A stretch of 64,000 nucleotides of DNA from NCBI GenBank assembly GCA_903231505.1, contig CAFBRK010000097.1, positions 1-64,000 on the forward strand, written 5' to 3'. This stretch comes from Olavius algarvensis associated proteobacterium Delta 3. GTDB taxonomy: Bacteria; Desulfobacterota; Desulfobacteria; Desulfobacterales; CAFBRK01. A program made the position numbers and the translations under genes. Position 1 is the first letter of the stretch. Every line of letters begins with the position of its first letter. The notes below the pieces were generated by a model. The model searched no databases. It was given only the letters and a program-made list of their open reading frames with translations, and was not told where the DNA came from. Positions 38,736 to 58,347 of this stretch are shown here, in pieces.

Positions 38736-40004
38736 TTGACAGAAAAAGAAATAATAAGTGGTCGGCAATCAAACTTAATTAAAAAAGATGAAATCAATTT
38801 CTTGGATTTGCTTGTTGTATTTTTAAACAGGAAACGTCTCATCATTATGTTTACGATGGGAGCTGCTTTACTATCTTTAATTATTAGTTTGTTGCTTCCA
38901 AACATGTTCATAGCGACAGCTAGAGTTTTGCCACCACGCCCGCCCAAAACCGGTCTCTTCTCGGCAATCACCCAGGCGACTGGGGCTATCGGTGGATTGC
39001 TGAGAAATATGGAAGATTCAACTACCTCCGAATTATATGTAGGAATTCTCAAAAGCCGCTCTGTTGCCGATGCTCTAATTGAAAAATTCGGTCTCAAAGA
39101 GCTGTACAACATGAAATACATGACTCATGTGTACAAGAACTTAGAGAAAAACAGCGATTTTAAAATTTCACGGGACGACGGTATAATTAGTATATCAGTG
39201 ATGGACAGGGATCCCAGACGGGCTGCTGAAATGGCTAACTATTATGTAGAAATGCTTGATAAGAAAAACCAGAAAGTAAATACGAGCGAAGGGCAGAGAA
39301 AAAGAGAATTTCTTGATAAGCGATTGGAAAAGGTAAAAAAAGATCTAATTGATGCGGAGAACGCTCTAAGAGAATTTCAGGAAAAGTATAAGCTTTTTTC
39401 AATCGAAGAACAAGCAAAAGTTGCAATTGAAGGTGCTGCTAGAATAAAGAGTGAAATAATAATAACGCAGACTGAACTTGAGGTTTTGAAACAGTTCGGA
39501 ACAGTGCGTCAAAATGAAGCCATTATGCTAAAAGCAAAAATAGATGAACTGCAAGATCAATTAGAGGGTATTGAAGTTGGCTCAGCAAAAAATAATATAG
39601 ACACTCAAAAGGAAAATGAAAAAAATTCTAATTTCTATATCCCGTTTAAAGAGATTCCTGAACTTGGCCTTCAATTGACAAGACTAATGCGTGAAGCAAA
39701 GATTCAAGAAAAAGTTTTTGAAATTATAACCACTGAATATGAAATGGCTAAAATTGAAGAAGCTAAAGATGTTAACACCATTCAAATGTTAGATAATGCA
39801 GTTCCTCCTGATAAAAAAAGTGCTCCAAGAAGACTAACTATTGTATTTCTATCTACAGTTTCTGCATTATTAATCTCTGTTTCTTATGTTTTTTTTATAG
39901 AATTTTTGAATAAAATAAGGAAAAGTGATCCGGCAAAATTTCAGATAATTCTTAATTCAGTAAATTTCAGTCGAAAAAAAATCAAAATATTAAATAGAAA
40001 TTGA
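38736..40004 (+). CDS. Wzz-type chain-length determinant, TTG start
   Basis: Polysaccharide co-polymerase that sets chain length, in the inner membrane. 422 residues. TTG start with an excellent GGAGGTG site. Seen: cytosolic N-terminus FLDLLVVFLNRKR, membrane segment LIIMFTMGAALLSLIISLLL at about 36-55, a long periplasmic coiled-coil part (YVEMLDKKNQKVNTSEGQRKR, LIDAENALREFQEKYKLFSI), Pro-rich DNAVPPDKKSAPRR, and second membrane segment near 370-390. No Walker motifs, so no fused tyrosine kinase. Confidence 0.92.
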   Translation: MTEKEIISGRQSNLIKKDEINFLDLLVVFLNRKRLIIMFTMGAALLSLIISLLLPNMFIATARVLPPRPPKTGLFSAITQATGAIGGLLRNMEDSTTSELYVGILKSRSVADALIEKFGLKELYNMKYMTHVYKNLEKNSDFKISRDDGIISISVMDRDPRRAAEMANYYVEMLDKKNQKVNTSEGQRKREFLDKRLEKVKKDLIDAENALREFQEKYKLFSIEEQAKVAIEGAARIKSEIIITQTELEVLKQFGTVRQNEAIMLKAKIDELQDQLEGIEVGSAKNNIDTQKENEKNSNFYIPFKEIPELGLQLTRLMREAKIQEKVFEIITTEYEMAKIEEAKDVNTIQMLDNAVPPDKKSAPRRLTIVFLSTVSALLISVSYVFFIEFLNKIRKSDPAKFQIILNSVNFSRKKIKILNRN

Positions 40005-40122
40005 TTATATGGTAATTTATTTATACTTTTAGAAAAGAAAAAAATATAAAAACACTAAACATCTCCAACTCGATTATTAAAGTAGTATACGCAAATTACT
40101 CATAAAAATTGATTTAATTTCG

Positions 40123-41421
40123 ATGGCAGAACAGGTACTAAAGATAAGAGCGAGATGGCTTCATAGCGGGATCAAGATCATCGCTGGTTCAAAACTGAGA
40201 AGGGCATCGGTCGGGTCTATCTTAGCAGGAGTTTTGGGCCAGGCACTATTGATAGTAACTGGGATATTGACTGCTCGTATTTTAGGTGTCGAAGATCGTG
40301 GTAATCTTGCAATTTTGACAGCTTTTGTTTTAAGTATCGCGGTAGTTGGCAGTGGAGGGATTCCTCAAGCCACGATATATTTTATTTCTCAAACAAAAAG
40401 AATAAAAGAAATATTTCAAAGAATTAAGCCTCTAATTGCAATACAATCAATCGGTCTGGTGATCATTCACGCTGTCGTTGTTTACATTTATGTTTCTGAT
40501 AAAGGATATACCTTTCAAACTGCTGCTTATTATACTCTTTTTGCTATCCCCGGATTTATAATTCAGTGGTACGGAATGTCTTTATTGCAGAGTCAAGAAA
40601 GATATCGTATTTTTAATATATTAAGGGTGCTGCCATTGTTGGCTTACACAATTATACTAATATTATTATTTAACAGCGATCGAGGAAAAATAACAAACAT
40701 AGCATTGATCTGGAGCCTCTCGAATCTTTTTATCGGAAGCATTATTTTTATTATATCAAATTTTGGTATAAAAGAGCGAGTGTTGATTAATAAAAAGGAA
40801 CCGCTGCCATCGCGAAAAGAGATTGCTATTTTCGGGATAAAAGGACTTTTTGGCTGGGCTTCTCCCTTGGATAGTTTTCGAGTAGACATTTTAATTGGCG
40901 CTGTCATATTATCGCCACATGCGATAGGTCTTTATGTGGTAGGACAGGCTTTTACAAATTTACCGAAAATCATTTCCAACAGTATGGGAATGATCGCGTA
41001 CCCGACGATTTCTAATAAAAAGGAATACCAAGATATTCGAAGGAATTTTTTAGGTTTTGTTCTATTTACATCAGCGTTGAGTACGATAATTTTTTTATTT
41101 CTTTATACTCTCATACCTTTTTTAGTAAAACTATTATTTGGAAATGCTTTCATTGGTGCAATTCCAATAGCAAGAATACTAATTTTCGGAGCCCTATTGG
41201 TTTCGATACGAACAATCATAGTTGAATGTCTTCGTGGAATGGGAAGGCCTGAATACTCAAGTTACTCTGAAATTGTCATATACCCTTGGCTTGCATTATC
41301 TATACCTATATTAATTCTTCCTTTTGGAGTAAATGGTATGGCCGTTTCAGTCGTTATAGGACAATTATTTTCTTTAACTGTTGCTTTAATACTATCGTAT
41401 AAAACCTTTTACTATTTATAA
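40123..41421 (+). CDS. Polysaccharide flippase (Wzx/oligosaccharide flippase family)
   Basis: 432 residues, about 12 membrane segments. Starts with a short amphipathic part, then ILAGVLGQALLIVTGILTARIL, GVEDRGNLAILTAF near 55 (typical of Wzx/MATE-like exporters), and GWASPLDSFRVDILIGAVIL near 245. It would flip undecaprenyl-linked repeat units to the periplasm for the polymerase encoded next. AT-rich codon use like its neighbours. Confidence 0.9.
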   Translation: MAEQVLKIRARWLHSGIKIIAGSKLRRASVGSILAGVLGQALLIVTGILTARILGVEDRGNLAILTAFVLSIAVVGSGGIPQATIYFISQTKRIKEIFQRIKPLIAIQSIGLVIIHAVVVYIYVSDKGYTFQTAAYYTLFAIPGFIIQWYGMSLLQSQERYRIFNILRVLPLLAYTIILILLFNSDRGKITNIALIWSLSNLFIGSIIFIISNFGIKERVLINKKEPLPSRKEIAIFGIKGLFGWASPLDSFRVDILIGAVILSPHAIGLYVVGQAFTNLPKIISNSMGMIAYPTISNKKEYQDIRRNFLGFVLFTSALSTIIFLFLYTLIPFLVKLLFGNAFIGAIPIARILIFGALLVSIRTIIVECLRGMGRPEYSSYSEIVIYPWLALSIPILILPFGVNGMAVSVVIGQLFSLTVALILSYKTFYYL

Positions 41422-41459
41422 TAAATACTTTAATAAATAAATTTAAAAAGTAAAAAGTA

Positions 41460-42686
41460 ATGGTTTCAGAAAATAAAATATCACATTTGATAGCGCCAAG
41501 CCACAGTTGTTTATATATTGTTTTTTCAATACTAATTGCACAAATGGCCTATATTTTTGTAATTACAGGAGGGAGTTTTAAAGCACTTGTTATAGCGCAA
41601 GGTATATTTATCATTGGAACAAATTTAATCTTTATTTTTAAAATTCATGAGCTAAATTTTTCTATCTATAATTTATCTGTTTGGTTTATTTTAGGCATTA
41701 TAATTTTTTTAAACATTATTATTAATATAGGTAATTACAGCGAAATAAATGATGAATACAGATTTGCTGCAGCTCACATGGGAGCGATTCTCGGTGCAGC
41801 ATTTGTTGTTCAATGGGCGGCTGAAAATCTTGAGATAAAAGTTCTTTTAGAGGTTTTAGCATGGACGGTAGCCCCTTTAATTTTTTATGCATTCATTTTG
41901 GGAGCATATATCCTAATTGAAAAAGATCGATTTTTCCCCCTCGGTATTCATCCGAACTGGTGGGGAGAATTAGCGTTTGGATTTGTCGTTTGTTCTTTAG
42001 CTTTGAGAAAGAAAAGTATAAAAATAATCTTTATAACATTTGGCATATTTTTGATGTATTTGGTGCAATCAAGAGGAGCACTTTTAGCAGCCATAATGAC
42101 AATAGTCGTACAATATTTTTTTAATCTTCGTCCTTTTGATAAAAGTTCAATAACAAGAATGATTTTTACATGCTTAATTATTTTTCTAATAACAGTAATA
42201 TGTTTTTTTGTTGGTTGGTTAATGCCAATTATAGTTTTTTTAGAAGAAAATATTTTATTTCTTAAAGATCCATTGCGTGGCCTTGGAACAGGATTAACAA
42301 ATCGGTTAGAAGGATGGATTCATGCAAAAGAAATATTTTATGAAAATCCAATTTTTGGCCAAGGTATCGATACTCTTGGTGATGTACATAATGGTTTCCT
42401 CCGTATGGCAGCCGAAGGTGGAATCATATTTATAGGTGTAATTGTAATATTGATTGTTTCATCGATGATTGACGCATGGAAAAAAAGAAATGATATAATC
42501 TTCTCAATATTGTTTGGAATCATAGCATATTTTTTTACATATCCGCGGATGCTAAATTTGAATATTGTAGGTATTATTTTTTTAATAACTCTGTTTAAAT
42601 GGAAACAAAGTATGGCCTTTGAAAAAAGTAAATATGATAAAGCAAAAAAAGAAGATGAAAACAAAATTATAAAGAATCTTCAATAG
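41460..42686 (+). CDS. O-antigen ligase/polymerase-like membrane protein (Wzy/WaaL type)
   Basis: 408 residues, 10-12 predicted membrane segments, starting 38 nt after the flippase gene. The Wzy_C-like part GRGLTNRLEGWIHAKEIFYENPIFGQGIDT lies at about 277-305 in outline (RLEGW and GxG...H typical), followed by DVHNGFLRMAAEGGIIF. Polymerase or ligase cannot be separated by sequence; position with wzz and wzx favours a Wzy polymerase. Confidence 0.83.
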   Translation: MVSENKISHLIAPSHSCLYIVFSILIAQMAYIFVITGGSFKALVIAQGIFIIGTNLIFIFKIHELNFSIYNLSVWFILGIIIFLNIIINIGNYSEINDEYRFAAAHMGAILGAAFVVQWAAENLEIKVLLEVLAWTVAPLIFYAFILGAYILIEKDRFFPLGIHPNWWGELAFGFVVCSLALRKKSIKIIFITFGIFLMYLVQSRGALLAAIMTIVVQYFFNLRPFDKSSITRMIFTCLIIFLITVICFFVGWLMPIIVFLEENILFLKDPLRGLGTGLTNRLEGWIHAKEIFYENPIFGQGIDTLGDVHNGFLRMAAEGGIIFIGVIVILIVSSMIDAWKKRNDIIFSILFGIIAYFFTYPRMLNLNIVGIIFLITLFKWKQSMAFEKSKYDKAKKEDENKIIKNLQ

Positions 42687-48955: not shown

Positions 48956-49360
48956 TTGAGTCTTGATAAAGTAGATTGGGTTTACTTTCAAGATATCGTT
49001 GATGATCGTGGACGTCTAACTGCGATTGAGGAGAACGTACATATACCTCTATCAATTTCAAGAATTTTCTATGTTCATCAGGTTAAAAATGGAATAGATC
49101 GTGGAGGGCACGCGCACAGAGACACTAATCAAGTCGTTGCTTGCATAAATGGTTCTGTAAAAATTGATGTCTCTAACGGAAAAGATTTGATGACTTTTAA
49201 GCTAAATAATCCAGGAAGGGGTATCTTCGTACCACAAATGTTGTGGGTACGCTTATATGATTTTAGTCAAAATAGCATTTGTTTGGTTTTAGCAGATACA
49301 ATATATGATAAAAGTAAATCAATTAGAAATTGGGAAGAATATTTAAAAAAAGTAAAATAA
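48956..49360 (+). CDS. Sugar 3,4-ketoisomerase (FdtA/QdtA, WxcM-like cupin), TTG start
   Basis: 134 residues, cupin fold. Interconverts dTDP-4-keto- and 3-keto-6-deoxyhexose. Seen: DDRGRLTAIEENVHIPLSISRIFYVHQV near 17-44 in outline, GIDRGGHAHRDTNQVVACINGSVKIDV near 48-74 in outline (His pair as in FdtA), and FVPQMLWVRLYDFSQNSICLVLADTIYD near 98-125 in outline (family typical end W..YDFS..S..LVLA). First gene of a four-gene cassette 34 nt before the 2,3-dehydratase. Confidence 0.9.
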   Translation: MSLDKVDWVYFQDIVDDRGRLTAIEENVHIPLSISRIFYVHQVKNGIDRGGHAHRDTNQVVACINGSVKIDVSNGKDLMTFKLNNPGRGIFVPQMLWVRLYDFSQNSICLVLADTIYDKSKSIRNWEEYLKKVK

Positions 49361-49393
49361 ATAACTTAACTAAATAATTTAACAGGATCATCA

Positions 49394-50833
49394 ATGAAAA
49401 AAATTTTAAAAGAAAAAAATATAAATAAATATTTAAAATCTGCTCAAGAAAAAGAAGGTGTCGTGTCAAACAAAGAGTTTAATGAGTGGTATGATAAAAA
49501 ATGTAAAAATTATATCTATAAAGTAGAAAAGATACCGATAAAAAAGTTAAGAGAATGGAAGTTTACTTCAGATACTGGATACCTTGAGCACAAAAGCGGA
49601 AAATTCTTTCGTGTAGAAGGAGTACATGTCAGAACAAACTTCGGTTATACACGGAGTTGGTCACAACCGATTATAAACCAACCGGAAATAGGTATTTTAG
49701 GAATTTTAACGAAAAACATCAACGGATTGTTACATTTTTTAATACAACTGAAGATGGAACCGGGAAATATTAACATTCTACAAATATCACCAACCGTGCA
49801 GGCCACTAAAAGTAATTATACTAAAGTCCATGGAGGGAAAAGTATAAAATATTTGGAATATTTCTTAAATTCATCAAAAGCTCGTATTATTGTAGATCAA
49901 TTGCAATCAGAGCAGGGTTCAAGATTTCTACGTAAAAGAAACAGAAATATGATTGTAGAGATTTCCGAAAATGAGAAAATTAGTATAGGAAAGAACTTTT
50001 GCTGGCTTACATTAGGGCAAATATTGTATTTTCTTAAGCATAACAACATGGTGAATATGGATACACGTACTGTGCTATCGTGTATTCGTTATGCAAAAAA
50101 AGATCAAAAATGTGATACAGCGATACATGAATATAATTCAAAAAATTTTAATGAAGATTTATTTATTTCATCTATTGCAAATGAAAAACATGCAGTACAT
50201 GATTTTGACGATATAATAAGTTGGATTACAGAAATGAAAACAAGGTATGAAGTTGAGGTAAAAAGAGTTCCAATAAATCAGCTAAAAGAATGGAAGTATG
50301 ATGGAGTTCAAATTACTCATGAAAAAAATAGATATTTTTCTGTAATCGGTGTCTCCGTTACTGCATCGGATCGAGAAAATTATAAATGGGATCAACCATT
50401 AATAGATTCGACAGATTTTGGAATCCTTTGTTTTATCTGTCAGAAAAAAAATAATATTTTACATTTTTTAGTTCAAGCGCGTGTTGAACCTGGAAATCTT
50501 GATGTATTGGAATTAGCACCAACCCTGCAATGTACGCCCTCGAATTATGACTTACAAAAAAAAGAAACTTTGCCTCCTTTTTACGATATTGTCACTAAAG
50601 CAAATAATAATAGTATACGTTACGATGTAATTCAATCTGAAGAAGGGGGAAGATTTTATCATGACCAGAATCGGTACAATATAATTGAAATAGATGGAAG
50701 ATATGAATTGGATTTACCAAGGAATTATTTATGGATGACATTAAGACAGATAAAAGAATTTATAAGATTTAATAATTATTTTAATATAGAGGCAAGAGGT
50801 CTCTTATCGTGTCTCGAGATAAAAATGCCGTAA
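49394..50833 (+). CDS. NDP-hexose 2,3-dehydratase
   Basis: 479 residues made of two homologous halves, as in the family (TylX3/SpnO/EvaA type), which removes the C-2 hydroxyl of a dTDP-4-keto-6-deoxyhexose. Half 1 at about 32-232, half 2 at about 277-475. Matching pairs: W87-Q91 (SWSQP) with W332-P335 (WDQP); MEPGN (121-125) with VEPGN (364-368); SPTVQATKSNY (132-142) with APTLQCTPSNY (375-385); QSEQGSRF (171-178) with QSEEGGRF (414-421); WLTLGQI (204-210) with WMTLRQI (447-453). Such enzymes are best known from antibiotic deoxysugar clusters, so a surface-polysaccharide setting is notable. Confidence 0.93.
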   Translation: MKKILKEKNINKYLKSAQEKEGVVSNKEFNEWYDKKCKNYIYKVEKIPIKKLREWKFTSDTGYLEHKSGKFFRVEGVHVRTNFGYTRSWSQPIINQPEIGILGILTKNINGLLHFLIQLKMEPGNINILQISPTVQATKSNYTKVHGGKSIKYLEYFLNSSKARIIVDQLQSEQGSRFLRKRNRNMIVEISENEKISIGKNFCWLTLGQILYFLKHNNMVNMDTRTVLSCIRYAKKDQKCDTAIHEYNSKNFNEDLFISSIANEKHAVHDFDDIISWITEMKTRYEVEVKRVPINQLKEWKYDGVQITHEKNRYFSVIGVSVTASDRENYKWDQPLIDSTDFGILCFICQKKNNILHFLVQARVEPGNLDVLELAPTLQCTPSNYDLQKKETLPPFYDIVTKANNNSIRYDVIQSEEGGRFYHDQNRYNIIEIDGRYELDLPRNYLWMTLRQIKEFIRFNNYFNIEARGLLSCLEIKMP

Positions 50834-50855
50834 CCTAAAGGAAAACGGATAATCC

Positions 50856-51818
50856 ATGAATATCCTTATAATCGGTTTCTCATCAATTGTAAAAAGACGA
50901 ATTATTCCTGCTTTGGAAAAAATAGATGAAATTGAAGCTATATCAATTAGCAGTAGAAAATCTCTAACAAAGGATATGATTACCTCAAAAAAGAAAGTGA
51001 ATATCTATAGAGGATATAAGAATGCGATCACGAACTGTGACTCATCATTAATATATATTTCATTACCAAATAGCATGCATGCAACATGGGCAAATCATGC
51101 CTTGGATGCAGGGAAGCACGTTATTATTGATAAACCGGCTACTATGAATTTGGAAGAAGCAAAAAATCTTTTAAAAAAGGCTAAGCAAAAAAAATTATGC
51201 GTAGCTGAAGCGAATGTCTGGATGTATCATCCTATGACAAGAAAAATAAAAAAAATTATCGATCGAGAGAAAGGTAAAAAGCAACATATTTCAGCCGTTT
51301 TTACATCACCTCCATTAAATCCAGAGAATTACAGATACAAAAAAGCATATGGCGGTGGAATATTGTTAGATAGAGGCTCTTACGCTGCAAGTTGTAGTCG
51401 AATATTCATTGAAAAATCACCTAAAGAAGTTCATTGTCATATAATAAAATGCAATAAAAAAGACATAATAGATATTTCTTTTAGCATTAGCATGTTATAC
51501 GAAGATGGAATTGTGTTTTCTGGATTTTTTAGTTTAGCTGCAGAATATGTAAACCGGCTTTCAATTCATGGATCTACGTATTATCTTGATGCTGGAAGAA
51601 TTTTCACTCCACCAGCCGACTTCAATGGCAATATAAATTTAATAAAAAATAATAAAAAAAATTCTATCTGCGTGGAAGCGGCAGATACTTTCTCTCTTTT
51701 TATAAAAGATGTGATAAGTGCAATAAACAAAAAATCATATAGCCAATTTGCGAAAATATTGTTTGGAGATACTAAATTATTATCAGACATTATAAATGTA
51801 GCAACAAAGGTGAATTAG
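50856..51818 (+). CDS. Gfo/Idh/MocA-type NDP-sugar 3-ketoreductase
   Basis: 320 residues. N-terminal NAD(P)-binding fold with NILIIGFSSIVKRRIIPAL at 2-20; the usual GxGxxG reads GFSSIV, as in sugar 3-ketoreductases of deoxysugar clusters. SLIYISLPNSMHATWANHALDAGKHVIIDKPATM near 66-99 in outline carries the DKP variant of the EKP motif; YGGGILLDRGSYAASCSRIF near 166. After the 2,3-dehydratase, this reduces the 3-keto group to give a 2,6-dideoxy-4-keto sugar. Its stop is directly followed by the next ATG. Confidence 0.87.
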   Translation: MNILIIGFSSIVKRRIIPALEKIDEIEAISISSRKSLTKDMITSKKKVNIYRGYKNAITNCDSSLIYISLPNSMHATWANHALDAGKHVIIDKPATMNLEEAKNLLKKAKQKKLCVAEANVWMYHPMTRKIKKIIDREKGKKQHISAVFTSPPLNPENYRYKKAYGGGILLDRGSYAASCSRIFIEKSPKEVHCHIIKCNKKDIIDISFSISMLYEDGIVFSGFFSLAAEYVNRLSIHGSTYYLDAGRIFTPPADFNGNINLIKNNKKNSICVEAADTFSLFIKDVISAINKKSYSQFAKILFGDTKLLSDIINVATKVN

Positions 51819-52934
51819 ATGGCAATAAAGGTTTGGGATTATTTGGAAGAATATGAAGTAGAAAAAGTAGATATTTTTGAAGGTATTGAAAAAGTATTTG
51901 GATCAGGAAAGTTAATACTAGGTAACAGTGTAGAAAATTTTGAAAAAGAATTTTCTCATTATTGTCACTGCAAGTATGGAATTGGAGTTGATAACGCTAC
52001 TCACGGAATATTTCTTTCGATTAAAGCCCTCGGAATTGGTAATAAAGATGAAGTCATAACAGTATCGAATACGGCAGTTCCAACTGTTGCCGCAATAGTT
52101 GGAGCTGGTGCAACACCAAAATTTGTAGATATTGAAACTGATACATATTTAATGAATATAAACAAAGTAGAAGCTGCTATTACTAAAAACACTAAATGCA
52201 TTTTACCGGTTCATCTATATGGGCAATGCGTTGATATGACTCCAATATTAGAGATTGCCAAAAAAAATGAGTTGTTTGTTATTGAAGATTGTGCTCAGTG
52301 TCACGGAGCGGAATATAAAAATAAAAAAGCTGGATCACTGTCAGACATGGGAGTTTTTTCGTTTTATCCTACTAAACCTTTGGGAGGATATGGTGATGGA
52401 GGTATGATCGTTACAAATAATAAAAAACTCGAAAAAAAACTTAGAAGGCTTAGATTTTATGGTATGGAAGATAAATACTACTCTGAAGAACATGGATACA
52501 ACGCACGACTTGACGAAATACATGCTGAAATTCTATCAAGAAAACTTAAAAGAATAGGTGTTTATATAAATAAAAGAAATACATTGGCCAAAAGATATTA
52601 TCATATACTGAAGGATACAAGTTTAATACTACCAAAAACTAGAAAAAACAACTCACATGTATATTACATATATGCATGCCGACACAAAAATAGGGACTAC
52701 ATTATAGAAGAACTAAAAAAATTTGATATACATGTTAATATCAGCTACCCTTGGCCTATTCATACTATGAGAGGATATAAGTATCTTGGTTACAAAGAAG
52801 GAGATTTACCTCTAACAGAGGGAGCTGCAAGAGAAATTTTTTCGTTACCGATGTATCCAATGTTCAAACATAAAGATCAAGATAAAGTATGTAAGGCATT
52901 ATCAGAAATTTTAGGTGAGAAAATTAATTTATAA
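51819..52934 (+). CDS. DegT/DnrJ/EryC1 sugar aminotransferase
   Basis: 371 residues. GIGVDNATHGIFLSIKALGIG near 54-74 in outline, TVSNTAVPTVAAIVGAGATPKFVDIET near 81 in outline, IEDCAQCHGAEYKNKKAGS near 155 and PLP-binding Lys186 in FSFYPTKPLGGYGDGG. Closest in look to FdtB/QdtB-type 3-aminotransferases. With ketoisomerase, 2,3-dehydratase and 3-ketoreductase it completes an NDP-amino-dideoxyhexose; whether the amine is at C-3 or C-4 cannot be read from the sequence. Start abuts the previous stop. Confidence 0.91.
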   Translation: MAIKVWDYLEEYEVEKVDIFEGIEKVFGSGKLILGNSVENFEKEFSHYCHCKYGIGVDNATHGIFLSIKALGIGNKDEVITVSNTAVPTVAAIVGAGATPKFVDIETDTYLMNINKVEAAITKNTKCILPVHLYGQCVDMTPILEIAKKNELFVIEDCAQCHGAEYKNKKAGSLSDMGVFSFYPTKPLGGYGDGGMIVTNNKKLEKKLRRLRFYGMEDKYYSEEHGYNARLDEIHAEILSRKLKRIGVYINKRNTLAKRYYHILKDTSLILPKTRKNNSHVYYIYACRHKNRDYIIEELKKFDIHVNISYPWPIHTMRGYKYLGYKEGDLPLTEGAAREIFSLPMYPMFKHKDQDKVCKALSEILGEKINL

Positions 52935-53010: not shown

Positions 53011-54228
53011 ATGAACAGAAAAGAAAAACACGTTAAAAATTTACCAAAAAAAGATACCATCTTATTTATGTCGCCCTTTTTTTTCCCTGAATCTATCTCA
53101 ACAGGAAAATATAATACATACTTGGTAAAAAAATTACTAAAAGCTGGATTTTCAGTTTATATTGTTGCTTTGCATCCATTATACCCAAATTGGAAATCAA
53201 AAAAGACTAACGAAGGCTTTGATGGAGCAACTATATACCGTGGCGGAGGATATGTTAGCTACCCAAAATCAATGATACTACGACGACTTTGTCTTGAAAT
53301 AGAATTTACTATCCATTCAATCAAGCAAATATTAAAAAATAGAAACATCGAAATCGTTATCATTGTTTTTCCGCCAAGTCTTTTCTTTTCATTTGTACAT
53401 CTTGTTATTCCGAAAAGAGCAAAAATAATCGGAATTGTTCATGATCTTCAGAGTGTCATGGCAAATGTGGAAAAACCACATGCAAAAAATTTTTTAGCTC
53501 AAATCATATTTTTTCTTGAAAGACAAAGTTTTCATGTTTGTGAAAAGCTTATTTTTCTTTCGAAATCAATGGCGAAAAGAGCGAAAGGTGATTACGAATT
53601 AGAACAAAAAGAAATTTCAGTGTGCTATCCATTCGCAAATATAGAAAATAGAAAAATAACAAAAGATTTAATAAATATTTTTTTGCCAAATTTTAAACAC
53701 GTAGTTTATTCAGGAGCGCTGGGAGAAAAGCAGAATCCATACAAATTGTTACAATTTTTCAAAGCATTGGTAAAAAAAAGAAAAAATATGATATGCCATT
53801 TCTTTTCAGGTGGTCCAATATTTAATAAGTTAAAACAGATTCAGGGGATTGATTCTGAAAGGATTTTTTTCCACGATCTTGTTCCCGAAAAAAATTTATA
53901 TGAACTATATTTAAAATCGGACATTCAAGTAATTCCGCAAAAATTCGGAATGTCTGATGGAGCGATACCTTCTAAATTACCAAATATTATAAGTGCTGGG
54001 ACGCCGATCTTCTCAATTAGTGAGTTTGGAAGTGAGGTGTCAAATCTTGTCGAAGAATCTGGAATAGGATTTTGTTCACACTCTTGGAATATTGAAAAAC
54101 TCGTTAAAGACTTAAATACATTTATATGCAAAATTGATAATGAGCCGAATATAGAAAGAAAAAAATTCTTAAAGAATTTTGTTGAGAAAAACTTTAATGT
54201 TGAACGAATTATTACTGCGATTGAATAA
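53011..54228 (+). CDS. Glycosyltransferase family 4 (WbuB-like)
   Basis: 405 residues. FMSPFFFPESISTGKYNTYLV near 19-39 in outline, GVHDLQSVMANVEK-type stretch IIGIVHDLQSVMANVEKPHA near 141, LKHVVYSGALGEKQNPYKLLQFF near 228 in outline, and C-terminal LKSDIQVIPQKFGMSDGAIPSKLPNIISAGTPIF near 307 in outline, typical of WbuB/WcaI fucosamine-type transferases. It may add the amino sugar made by the preceding cassette. Convergent with the LamG gene, 8 nt apart. Confidence 0.9.
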   Translation: MNRKEKHVKNLPKKDTILFMSPFFFPESISTGKYNTYLVKKLLKAGFSVYIVALHPLYPNWKSKKTNEGFDGATIYRGGGYVSYPKSMILRRLCLEIEFTIHSIKQILKNRNIEIVIIVFPPSLFFSFVHLVIPKRAKIIGIVHDLQSVMANVEKPHAKNFLAQIIFFLERQSFHVCEKLIFLSKSMAKRAKGDYELEQKEISVCYPFANIENRKITKDLINIFLPNFKHVVYSGALGEKQNPYKLLQFFKALVKKRKNMICHFFSGGPIFNKLKQIQGIDSERIFFHDLVPEKNLYELYLKSDIQVIPQKFGMSDGAIPSKLPNIISAGTPIFSISEFGSEVSNLVEESGIGFCSHSWNIEKLVKDLNTFICKIDNEPNIERKKFLKNFVEKNFNVERIITAIE

Positions 54229-54236
54229 TGATCTAT

Positions 54237-55022
54237 TTAAGCGCGAAGTATTTTTAAAGGCGGGAGTAGCTGATGTTTTGCACTAATGAGAAACCGCTTG
54301 AAATAAGATTTAATTTTGAAAAAACGGAGGCTCCTAATAGTTAAAAAAAAGGCAAACACACTGCTTAATAGGAAAATAGGAGATGGAATGGGTATCACAA
54401 CATGATGATTGTAGATTCGAACGTCATCGATAGCTCCCCTCCAAAAGGCAGAAACATTGTCATCTCTTGTGCCCAAGTACATATCAAGCCCAGCGTTCAT
54501 GAAACCCGAAGTAGTTCCTGTTGCAAGATTTACTGAGTTTACACTAAATTTCCATCCGGAAGCATTAGCTATAAACTCCATATAGTTCCATTGATCATTG
54601 TTTTGCTGAGTATATACATATGTGGAATTGAAACCAGAATCAAATATGAAGGAGTCACTGGTTGATGGGCCTGACTCGAACCTAAACTTGGAATTCCCGA
54701 AACTAAGAGGATTTCTCCAAGCTTCTGGACTTTCGGGACGCATCCAAAAGGATATCGTGATCTCTCGTTCACCGTTTACGGCATCACCGAGACCTGGCAT
54801 CTTAATAGAGTCCATAACGCCATCAAAATAATAGGCACTGTTTTCAACGCCAAATCGATCCTCTGTCAATGATGCTCCGCTTACGATTCCATCAAACCCA
54901 TTGCCGCTTTCATCGTTTGCATTACCGCTAAAAGAGTAGGATGCAACCAGCGCGGCATTGCCACACGTTGTCGACAAGATAAAGCTCAAAGGTATCAATA
55001 ATAATATGAGGAGACGTTTCAT
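54237..55022 (-). CDS. Secreted LamG-domain protein with PEP-CTERM-like anchor and tail
   Basis: 261 residues. Signal peptide about 1-24 (LLILLLIPLSFILSTTCGNAA). Residues 27-205 form a LamG/concanavalin-like beta sandwich (VASYSFSGNANDESGNGFDG, EITISFWMRPE, WRGAIDDVRIYN). Residues 211-235 read VIPIPSPIFLLSSVFAFFLTIRSLRFFK, outline, resembling a PEP-CTERM signal (here PIPSP) with hydrophobic stretch and basic residues, but about 25 further residues follow, which is unusual for a sorting signal at the extreme C-terminus. Exosortase systems are tied to EPS loci; no exosortase lies in this window. Confidence 0.8.
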   Translation of the reverse strand: MKRLLILLLIPLSFILSTTCGNAALVASYSFSGNANDESGNGFDGIVSGASLTEDRFGVENSAYYFDGVMDSIKMPGLGDAVNGEREITISFWMRPESPEAWRNPLSFGNSKFRFESGPSTSDSFIFDSGFNSTYVYTQQNNDQWNYMEFIANASGWKFSVNSVNLATGTTSGFMNAGLDMYLGTRDDNVSAFWRGAIDDVRIYNHHVVIPIPSPIFLLSSVFAFFLTIRSLRFFKIKSYFKRFLISAKHQLLPPLKILRA

Positions 55023-56916: not shown

Positions 56917-58347
56917 ATGTCCATTCTCAAGACATATGCCCTGCTGTTTACTGCAATTCAAAAAATTGTAGACGTTATCATTGTGCTGGCAGGTACTTGG
57001 TTCATCAGGGACATTGCACCTCCTGAATTACTGCGAGGGTTGGCTCTGTTCGGCAGCCTGCTGACGCTTGTCATTTTTTCTGTTTTTGACGTATACCGAT
57101 CCTGGCGAAAAGTGACTATTGCACAACAGTTGAGATCCGTTTTGTTTTCATGGATTGCTGTGCTGGTTGCCATCAACTTGATCATCTTGTTTCTATCCAA
57201 TGAACAGCAATTCAAATTATTATGGCCATATGTCTTGTTTAAGGCCCCCATTTTTTATGAATGGGCGCTGTTGATTTTTTCAGGTTTAGCGACGGTCAGG
57301 ATATTAACCCGCATCTTTCTCATGATTATCCGAAGACAAGGTCATAATATCCGCACTGCCGTCATCGTTGGTACTGGAATTGCCGGCCAGCGGATCGGCA
57401 ATGACCTCAGAAGAGACAAATGGATGGGAATACGTCTTATCGGATATTTTGATGATGCAGCCCCTACAGGTTCTCCTGTTTTCCGTTATGAGAAGCAAGT
57501 GGGAGCGGTGTTGGGACCGATCAGTGAATGTGAAACATACATTTTGGAAAACAAAGTAGACATGCTTTTTATTGCTCTTCCCATGAGCGACGAAAAGATT
57601 ATTTCCCGCTTGATTCAGAAGCTGGGAACACGGGGAGTGAACGTGCTCATGGTACCGGATCTGTTCACTGTTGGCATACAGAAGGCAAAAGTTGATTATA
57701 TCGGTAACATGCCATTGATGGGCCTTAATCTTTTTCCTACCTGGAAACGAACGTTCGATACTGTGTTTTCGGTTGGGATTATAATCGTAACATTGCCACT
57801 TTGGATACTCATCGTGTTGGTGATCAAGCTGGAAGATAGAGGACCCGTTTTCTACAGGCATCCGAGGCTTATGGAAAGCGGTAAACAATTTATGTGTCTG
57901 AAATTCAGGACAATGCGTGTAGATTCTGATCAGCGACTTGAAAAAATGCTGGAGGAAAATAGAGAGCTTAGACAAGAGTGGAATCATAATTTTAAACTGA
58001 AAAACGATCCCAGGGTAACTAAAGTCGGATGGCTTCTTAGAAGAACAAGTCTGGATGAATTGCCCCAGTTTATCAATGTTCTTCTAGGAGATATGAGTGT
58101 GGTAGGCGCCCGTCCAATTGTTCCGGAAGAATTGCGCAATTATTATTCCGACACTGCCTTAACTTACTGCGCCATGAAACCCGGCATAACAGGTCCGTGG
58201 CAGACAGGAGAGAGGAACGACGTCTGTGATTACAGAGAGCGTGTTGAGATAGACCGGATTTATGTTTTAAACTGTACGCTGGCGACAGATCTAAAAATAA
58301 TCGGCAAAACTATCTGGCGGATGATATGGCCTAAGGGGGCGTACTAG
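56917..58347 (+). CDS. Undecaprenyl-phosphate sugar phosphotransferase (WcaJ/WbaP family)
   Basis: Starts repeat-unit synthesis by moving a hexose-1-phosphate to undecaprenyl phosphate. 476 residues. Four membrane segments in the first 130 residues, a CoA-binding-like Rossmann domain ([21 protein letters not shown] near 149 in outline), a fifth membrane helix [23 protein letters not shown] near 285 and the catalytic domain: [25 protein letters not shown] near 310 in outline, [29 protein letters not shown] near 372 in outline, [15 protein letters not shown] near 427. Nothing tells which sugar. Ends in a good terminator. Confidence 0.95.

Follow-up and report, generated by a model that had tools for sequence, protein, structure and literature searches.

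The first 64,000 nucleotides of contig CAFBRK010000097.1 of the Olavius algarvensis associated proteobacterium Delta 3 (the window) include four adjacent genes, here called F, D, G and T, for an FdtA/QdtA-like protein, an NDP-hexose 2,3-dehydratase, a Gfo/Idh/MocA oxidoreductase and a DegT-family aminotransferase. Together they probably constitute one pathway that makes one rare 2-deoxy amino sugar, of a kind familiar from antibiotics, for a surface polysaccharide. The predicted product, a dTDP-3-amino-2,3,6-trideoxyhexose (the acosamine, ristosamine and daunosamine class), is a likely one when any order of the enzymes is allowed. The parts are known families, and their combination is a conserved unit that recurs across distant bacterial phyla, with three enzymes on dehydratase-associated branches and one carrying an altered active-site signature. 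The four genes are:

48956..49360, + strand: F, FdtA/QdtA-like cupin of 134 amino acids (aa), with a TTG start and AAGGAG upstream; PF05523
49394..50833, + strand: D, NDP-hexose 2,3-dehydratase of 479 aa, with two PF03559 domains (1.6e-157)
50856..51818, + strand: G, Gfo/Idh/MocA oxidoreductase, a relative of KijD10; PF01408 and PF22725 (GFO_IDH_MocA, 4e-17)
51819..52934, + strand: T, DegT-family pyridoxal phosphate (PLP) aminotransferase of a dehydratase-linked clade; PF01041 (2.6e-105)

In the list of open reading frames (ORFs) of the window the genes run head to tail, with intergenic gaps of 33, 22 and 0 nt, at the positions and in the order given by an initial annotation made from the letters alone. 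The family names it proposed are borne out by Pfam matches with E-values from 4e-17 to 1.6e-157, far beyond chance. The whole genome contains a single PF03559 gene and a single FdtA gene, both in this cassette.

The initial annotation was also right to place the 479-residue protein in the 2,3-dehydratase family. D scores 521 bits against PF03559 (cut-off 25) over two stretches, a two-domain match, and EvaA is the sole solved relative found (1.8e-123). Glu122 and Glu173 of D align with E139 and E190 of EvaA, and both Glu139 and Glu190 are required for EvaA activity according to an excerpt of a review that describes sugar 2,3-dehydratases from antibiotic pathways (PMC8987622). From family membership and these conserved residues it follows that D should catalyze the 2,3-dehydratase reaction. 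The second domain of D carries Glu365 in an EPGN motif where EvaA has D-G-G. The second pocket is described as inactive in EvaA; that of D, with Glu365, may be worth testing.

F matches PF05523 at 2.2e-39 (134.7 bits), and its nearest solved structures are QdtA and FdtA. An AlphaFold2 model of F (predicted local distance difference test, pLDDT, 92) matches QdtA at a template modelling (TM) score of 0.91. The active-site histidines His52 and His54, equivalent to H49 and H51 of FdtA, are kept, as they are in 17/17 aligned members of the subfamily. The name 3,4-ketoisomerase, given by the initial annotation, is sound as a family assignment, but a key residue of the characterized enzymes is absent and F falls in a separate clade. 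Position 98 of F is Val, where QdtA has Arg97 and FdtA has His.

We compared 17 cassette F proteins with 61 other FdtA-family sequences. Position 98 (97 in QdtA) is V, I or T in 17/17 cassette proteins and R in 46, H in 9, G in 3 and V, K or A in one each of the others. Position 121 is K, R, M or H in 17/17 (Lys121 in the window) versus D or E in 60/61, and position 122 is S in 16/17 (Ser122 in the window) versus Y in 59/61. The DETDY motif, with its acidic residue and Tyr, is thus gone from the window protein, which has Lys121-Ser122 instead. Position 41 is H in all 17 versus Y in 47 and H in 4 of the 61 others, and Thr57 is fixed in 17/17. The 17 proteins form one clade in a quick tree (Shimodaira-Hasegawa-like approximate likelihood ratio test, SH-aLRT, 99), and F belongs to a distinct FdtA/QdtA-like subfamily. 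Work on a Y17R/R97H QdtA enzyme reportedly indicates that the result of the reaction at C4 depends on residues 17 and 97; the differences between F and QdtA are seen directly in the alignment, and the Y17R/R97H variant is known here by the title of its structure entry only. We rejected position 98 alone as a marker of the subfamily because one protein (locus L142) has Val there and no dehydratase, so the whole signature is required. Ordinary FdtA genes (L120, L121, L126, L127, L150, L152 and others) often occur as tandem pairs ahead of a DegT gene. One copy reads GGHAH..Q; its partner reads GGHAY/F..E and so has a different residue in place of the second active-site His. A heteromer or a split function may merit a look.

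The F subfamily tracks the dehydratase. A scan of species genomes with D gave 113 relatives, and among the best 80 loci kept, cassette-type F lies directly before D in 12. These include loci from Desulfonatronum, Pseudodesulfovibrio, Nitrospiraceae, Omnitrophota, Bacteroidales, Bacteroidia, Acidobacteria, Armatimonadota, Thiogranum, a gammaproteobacterium and a deltaproteobacterium. All four genes occur in the order F-D-G-T on one strand in seven of the 12 (L018, L019, L024, L027, L071, L082 and L085); the carrier of L024 is the cultured Pseudodesulfovibrio pelocollis SB368. In L046 a family 2 glycosyltransferase (GT2) gene separates D from G, in L015 the opposite strand carries T and G, L014 has no T in the 13.7 kb examined, and L028 and L030 stop at a contig end.

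Two surveys were not chosen by dehydratase. We searched 395 genomes of the window's phylum with PF05523 alone, added an order-wide search with the cassette F alignment, and checked the listed loci for an F with the signature residues and for a D gene no more than about 1.5 kb away. A complete signature-bearing F stands beside D in 4/4 of these loci apart from the window (L137, L138, L139 and L141, two pairs of which share families and are not fully independent), and ordinary FdtA does so in 0/43. At a further locus (L145) the signature F is cut by a contig end, and cassette-type D, G and T lie on another contig of the same genome. Longer stretches contain all four genes in L177 and L178; L175 and L176 run into a contig end behind D or G. 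Among the 30 best loci of 395 Bacteroidota genomes, the signature was found in the bait genome only; the 29 others have ordinary FdtA, with D in 0/29. Pooled over both surveys, signature F is beside D in 4/4 testable loci and ordinary FdtA/QdtA in 0/72. These counts exclude a further set of loci that proved to come from the genomes of the phylum survey, with the same contigs and nearly identical coordinates.

F and D are adjacent in 17 loci in total (the window, 12 of the best 80 and four from the phylum survey), and F-D-G-T have the same order and strand in ten of them, the window and nine further loci. The combination, described as an unusual mix in the initial annotation, is indeed unusual for antibiotic clusters, but in Gram-negative bacteria it is a recurrent unit. 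D followed directly by a G-type gene is the common order outside the cassette too. A GT2 gene lies near the cassette in eight of the 12 F-D loci (L014, L015, L018, L019, L024, L027, L028 and L046) and likewise in L109 and L110 (Pfam Glycos_transf_2). We take these proteins to be ArnC/DPM1-like, and their position suggests that the sugar is often moved via a polyprenyl phosphate carrier; no ArnC/DPM1-like GT2 homologue was found in the window. A DNA-level search in E. coli genomes gave no match. Plasmid searches gave mostly Streptomyces with D and, with F, FdtA-family proteins, none of them above 41% identity in the 15 matches listed.

The nearest named structure to G is the sugar 3-ketoreductase KijD10 (2.7e-33), and Lys93 and Tyr176 of the active site are kept. 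In a quick tree of 65 Gfo/Idh proteins, the 14 cassette G proteins form one clade, with the other 51, including KijD10, across a branch with SH-aLRT of 100. G is thus a sister of the KijD10-type 3-ketoreductases. The initial annotation, which called it a 3-ketoreductase, had the Gfo/Idh family right, but the protein is in a sister clade to, not within, the 3-ketoreductases linked to antibiotic dehydratases.

The closest solved relatives of T by sequence are chain 7b0d and QdtB, and the PLP lysine is Lys186 in an FYPTKPLGG motif. The best, sub-threshold NCBIfam models describe C4 transaminases, PseC among them. In a tree of 83 aminotransferases (EvaB itself not included), a 19-row clade (100/100) unites the window T with its cassette counterparts, those near D in the actinomycete loci L026, L049, L069, L078 and L088, and those of L109 and L110. 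DesV, QdtB and the FdtA-partner aminotransferases are in another clade, and T is placed next to the DesV/QdtB group but outside the QdtB/FdtA-partner clade of the Fuc3NAc/Qui3NAc pathway. Because of this position in the tree, T is likeliest to aminate C3. In L088, genes for D, T, an RmlC-like epimerase, a short-chain dehydrogenase/reductase (SDR) and a C-methyltransferase stand in a row, an EvaA-B-D-E-C-like set whose content is that of the Eva set described in an excerpt of PMC8987122.

Other arrangements of these families were seen. In the actinomycete loci L069 and L078, a single dehydratase has near it both a reductase of the KijD10 clade and an aminotransferase of the cassette clade; judging from nearness to KijD10, these are perhaps tetronate-type clusters. 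Eight loci from Gram-negative and related bacteria (L016, L017, L021, L022, L023, L025, L029 and L112) have D, a KijD10-clade G, an aminotransferase of a distant DegT clade and no F. Such D-G loci could encode a vicenisamine-like 4-amino-2,4,6-trideoxyhexose route outside antibiotic clusters.

For the window cassette we tentatively favor the order D-G-F-T. The starting material would be dTDP-4-keto-6-deoxyglucose from RmlA and RmlB. Both are encoded on other contigs of the same genome (RmlB at G000:C83, RmlA at G000:C216; both over family cut-offs), as the initial annotation had foreseen from the lack of rmlA and rmlB in the window. On this substrate 2,3-dehydratases yield a 3,4-diketo-2,6-dideoxy sugar, and D would strip the C2 hydroxyl in this way. 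G would then reduce C3, and F would shift the ketone from C4 to C3 of the 2-deoxy substrate, which results in a C4 hydroxyl. T would aminate C3 to give the dTDP-3-amino-2,3,6-trideoxyhexose, and neighboring glycosyltransferases would place the sugar into a Wzx/Wzy-type surface polysaccharide. If T aminates C3, F and G must supply the C4 hydroxyl and the stereochemistry. Each enzyme would keep its family's reaction in this order, and action on a 2-deoxy substrate could explain the altered residues of F. The common D-then-G order suits a retained 3-ketoreductase role of G. Locus L014 is F-D-G with no T nearby, which means that prior amination of the sugar is no requirement for F and G; its genome has only QdtB/7b0d-like aminotransferases and none of T's clade, which fits D-G-F-T. 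We infer the stereochemistry and the sequence in which G, F and T act; that the four enzymes act jointly is supported by their conservation.

Several observations count against this proposal. The cassette D proteins are not one clade in a quick tree, and G is outside the clade of KijD10 and the antibiotic-linked reductases. F has no His or Arg at QdtA position 97 and is otherwise altered, which leaves some doubt about the reaction it catalyzes. At L109 and L110, D and T occur but F and G do not, and the two genomes (73% and 79% complete) show no FdtA and just weak partial Gfo/Idh matches in place of a full-length cassette-type G. The T proteins of these two loci are within the cassette clade, and T may therefore act directly on the product of D. 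In the open-licence PMC literature searched, we found no 3-amino-2,3,6-trideoxyhexose in a surface polysaccharide. A single shared history of all four genes was rejected, since the D tree lacks one cassette clade.

The same product class could be reached in a D-T-G order, as for epivancosamine or ristosamine, which also fits and which we consider only somewhat less likely. T would aminate C3 of the 3,4-diketo product of D, G would then reduce C4, and F would be a C3/C5 epimerase or would tautomerize D's product, so that F and G would take the places of EvaD and EvaE. The clade of T holds dehydratase-adjacent aminotransferases from loci without F or cassette-type G (L026, L049, L088, L109 and L110), L088 adds the RmlC-like epimerase and the SDR, and both the missing position-97 His/Arg of F and the separation of the G clade from KijD10-type 3-ketoreductases count in favor of this order. 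Orthologs of EvaA, B, D and E are named as the ristosamine set in an excerpt of PMC8987122, which gives four genes for a 3-amino-2,3,6-trideoxyhexose. The cassette shares with the Eva route (EvaA-EvaB-EvaD-EvaE; epivancosamine and ristosamine of glycopeptide antibiotics) the catalytic glutamates of D, and its T is in the clade of L088, itself in an Eva-like set. However, it has FdtA-like and Gfo/Idh proteins instead of the RmlC-like epimerase and SDR 4-ketoreductase, and lies in a polysaccharide locus, not an antibiotic cluster. To our knowledge no member of the FdtA family is an epimerase. Against the D-T-G order are also the retention of F-D-G without a T of this clade in L014 and the D-then-G arrangement, which is the common one for 3-ketoreductases.

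It is improbable that the cassette makes a 4-amino-2,4,6-trideoxyhexose of the vicenisamine type, with D, G as a 3-ketoreductase, T acting at C4 and F as an accessory. The route is described for VinD, VinE and VinF in an excerpt of PMC11284099, and the sub-threshold PseC-like models of T would agree with it. In common with the vicenisamine/digitoxose-type routes (VinD-VinE-VinF, KijD10), the cassette has a Gfo/Idh protein after its 2,3-dehydratase, and this protein keeps the Lys and Tyr found in KijD10. However, T is nearest to 7b0d and QdtB and next to the DesV/QdtB group, the aminotransferases of the Gram-negative D-G loci without F are in a separate, distant clade, G is in the sister clade, and the added F would be left without a role despite tracking D.

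The initial annotation left open whether two sugars or a single new one is made. One sugar is likelier, because F and D recur together, the F subfamily tracks D, T groups with dehydratase-linked aminotransferases, and G is on a branch of its own. Two sugars, with F and T making a 3-amino-3,6-dideoxyhexose of the Fuc3N/Qui3N type and D and G a 2,6-dideoxyhexose, are very unlikely. In antibiotic clusters that make two sugars, such as that for tylosin, F and T lie apart from D and G in one locus. This is seen in Streptomyces loci L058, L060 and L070, with F- and T-type genes about 3.5-5 kb from D and G. But the F of these loci is of the ordinary kind (Arg at 97) and their T belongs with DesV, whereas the cassette partners are all of other clades, and no FdtC/QdtC-like acetyltransferase or 4-ketoreductase was found in a scan of ORFs between 38.7 and 62.4 kb. 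We rejected two sugars as the principal interpretation since the clades of F and T both accompany the dehydratase. A simple Fuc3N/Qui3N pathway was rejected on the same clades and the missing acetyltransferase. The cassette does share with the FdtA/QdtA-FdtB/QdtB route (dTDP-Fuc3NAc and dTDP-Qui3NAc) the FdtA fold, the two active-site histidines and a nearby DegT aminotransferase, but differs in V/I/T at position 97, the loss of DETDY, the clade of T, and the addition of D and G.

There is little to recommend F as a degenerate or non-catalytic partner, with D, G and T alone making the sugar: the position-97 residue and DETDY are lost and L109 and L110 have no F, but the kept His52 and His54 and the newly fixed residues (His41 and Thr57 in 17/17, Ser122 in 16/17) look like selection for function.

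It is possible, if short of an even chance, that the F subfamily performs a reaction undescribed for its family. It would be either an epimerization at C3/C5 or a 3,4-keto-isomerization that acts on a 2-deoxy sugar and employs a new proton donor, for which the invariant His41 is one candidate. With the sister branch of 3-ketoreductases it would form a second, non-actinomycete route to 3-amino-2,3,6-trideoxyhexoses, which several phyla would use in their surface glycans. The presence of a conserved cassette in polysaccharide loci across several phyla would make true 2-deoxy amino sugars, regarded as antibiotic parts, building blocks of bacterial surfaces too. When genomes are annotated, the residue signature can tell this FdtA subfamily apart from ordinary ketoisomerases, and the cassette is a four-enzyme set that could be assayed at once and that may offer new enzymes for the synthesis of such sugars. 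No description of it was found in the open-licence PMC literature searched, which leaves most subscription papers outside its scope and is weak evidence of novelty.

The cassette sits within a Wzz/Wzx/Wzy-type surface polysaccharide locus. Its G+C content is 0.31, versus about 0.50-0.55 across most of the remaining window, and the low-G+C island encodes Wzz-, Wzx- and Wzy-like proteins, methyltransferases, three glycosyltransferases and a polyprenyl glycosylphosphotransferase. Neighboring features are:

38736..42686, + strand: Wzz/GNVR, Wzx-like and Wzy-like proteins (three ORFs); PF02706, PF01943 and PF04932
47459..48700, + strand: family 4 glycosyltransferase (GT4) upstream of the cassette; PF00534 (4.4e-18)
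53011..54228, + strand: GT4 glycosyltransferase, WcaI-like; Pfam Glyco_transf_4/Glycos_transf_1
56917..58347, + strand: polyprenyl glycosylphosphotransferase; PF02397 (6.5e-59), TIGR03025 over cut-off

The best NCBIfam model for the glycosyltransferase at 53011..54228 is the WcaI family, at 115.9 bits and under the cut-off of 276. The polyprenyl glycosylphosphotransferase would start the repeat unit of the polysaccharide. No antibiotic scaffold genes (polyketide synthase, nonribosomal peptide synthetase or other) lie beside the sugar genes; the largest ORF of the window is at most 948 aa, and the neighbors are polysaccharide genes. A promoter scan gave 32 matches versus 36.0 expected from shuffles, and no terminator was found. 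Also within the polysaccharide locus, positions 54237-55022 on the minus strand encode a protein with a laminin-G-like domain (PF13385).

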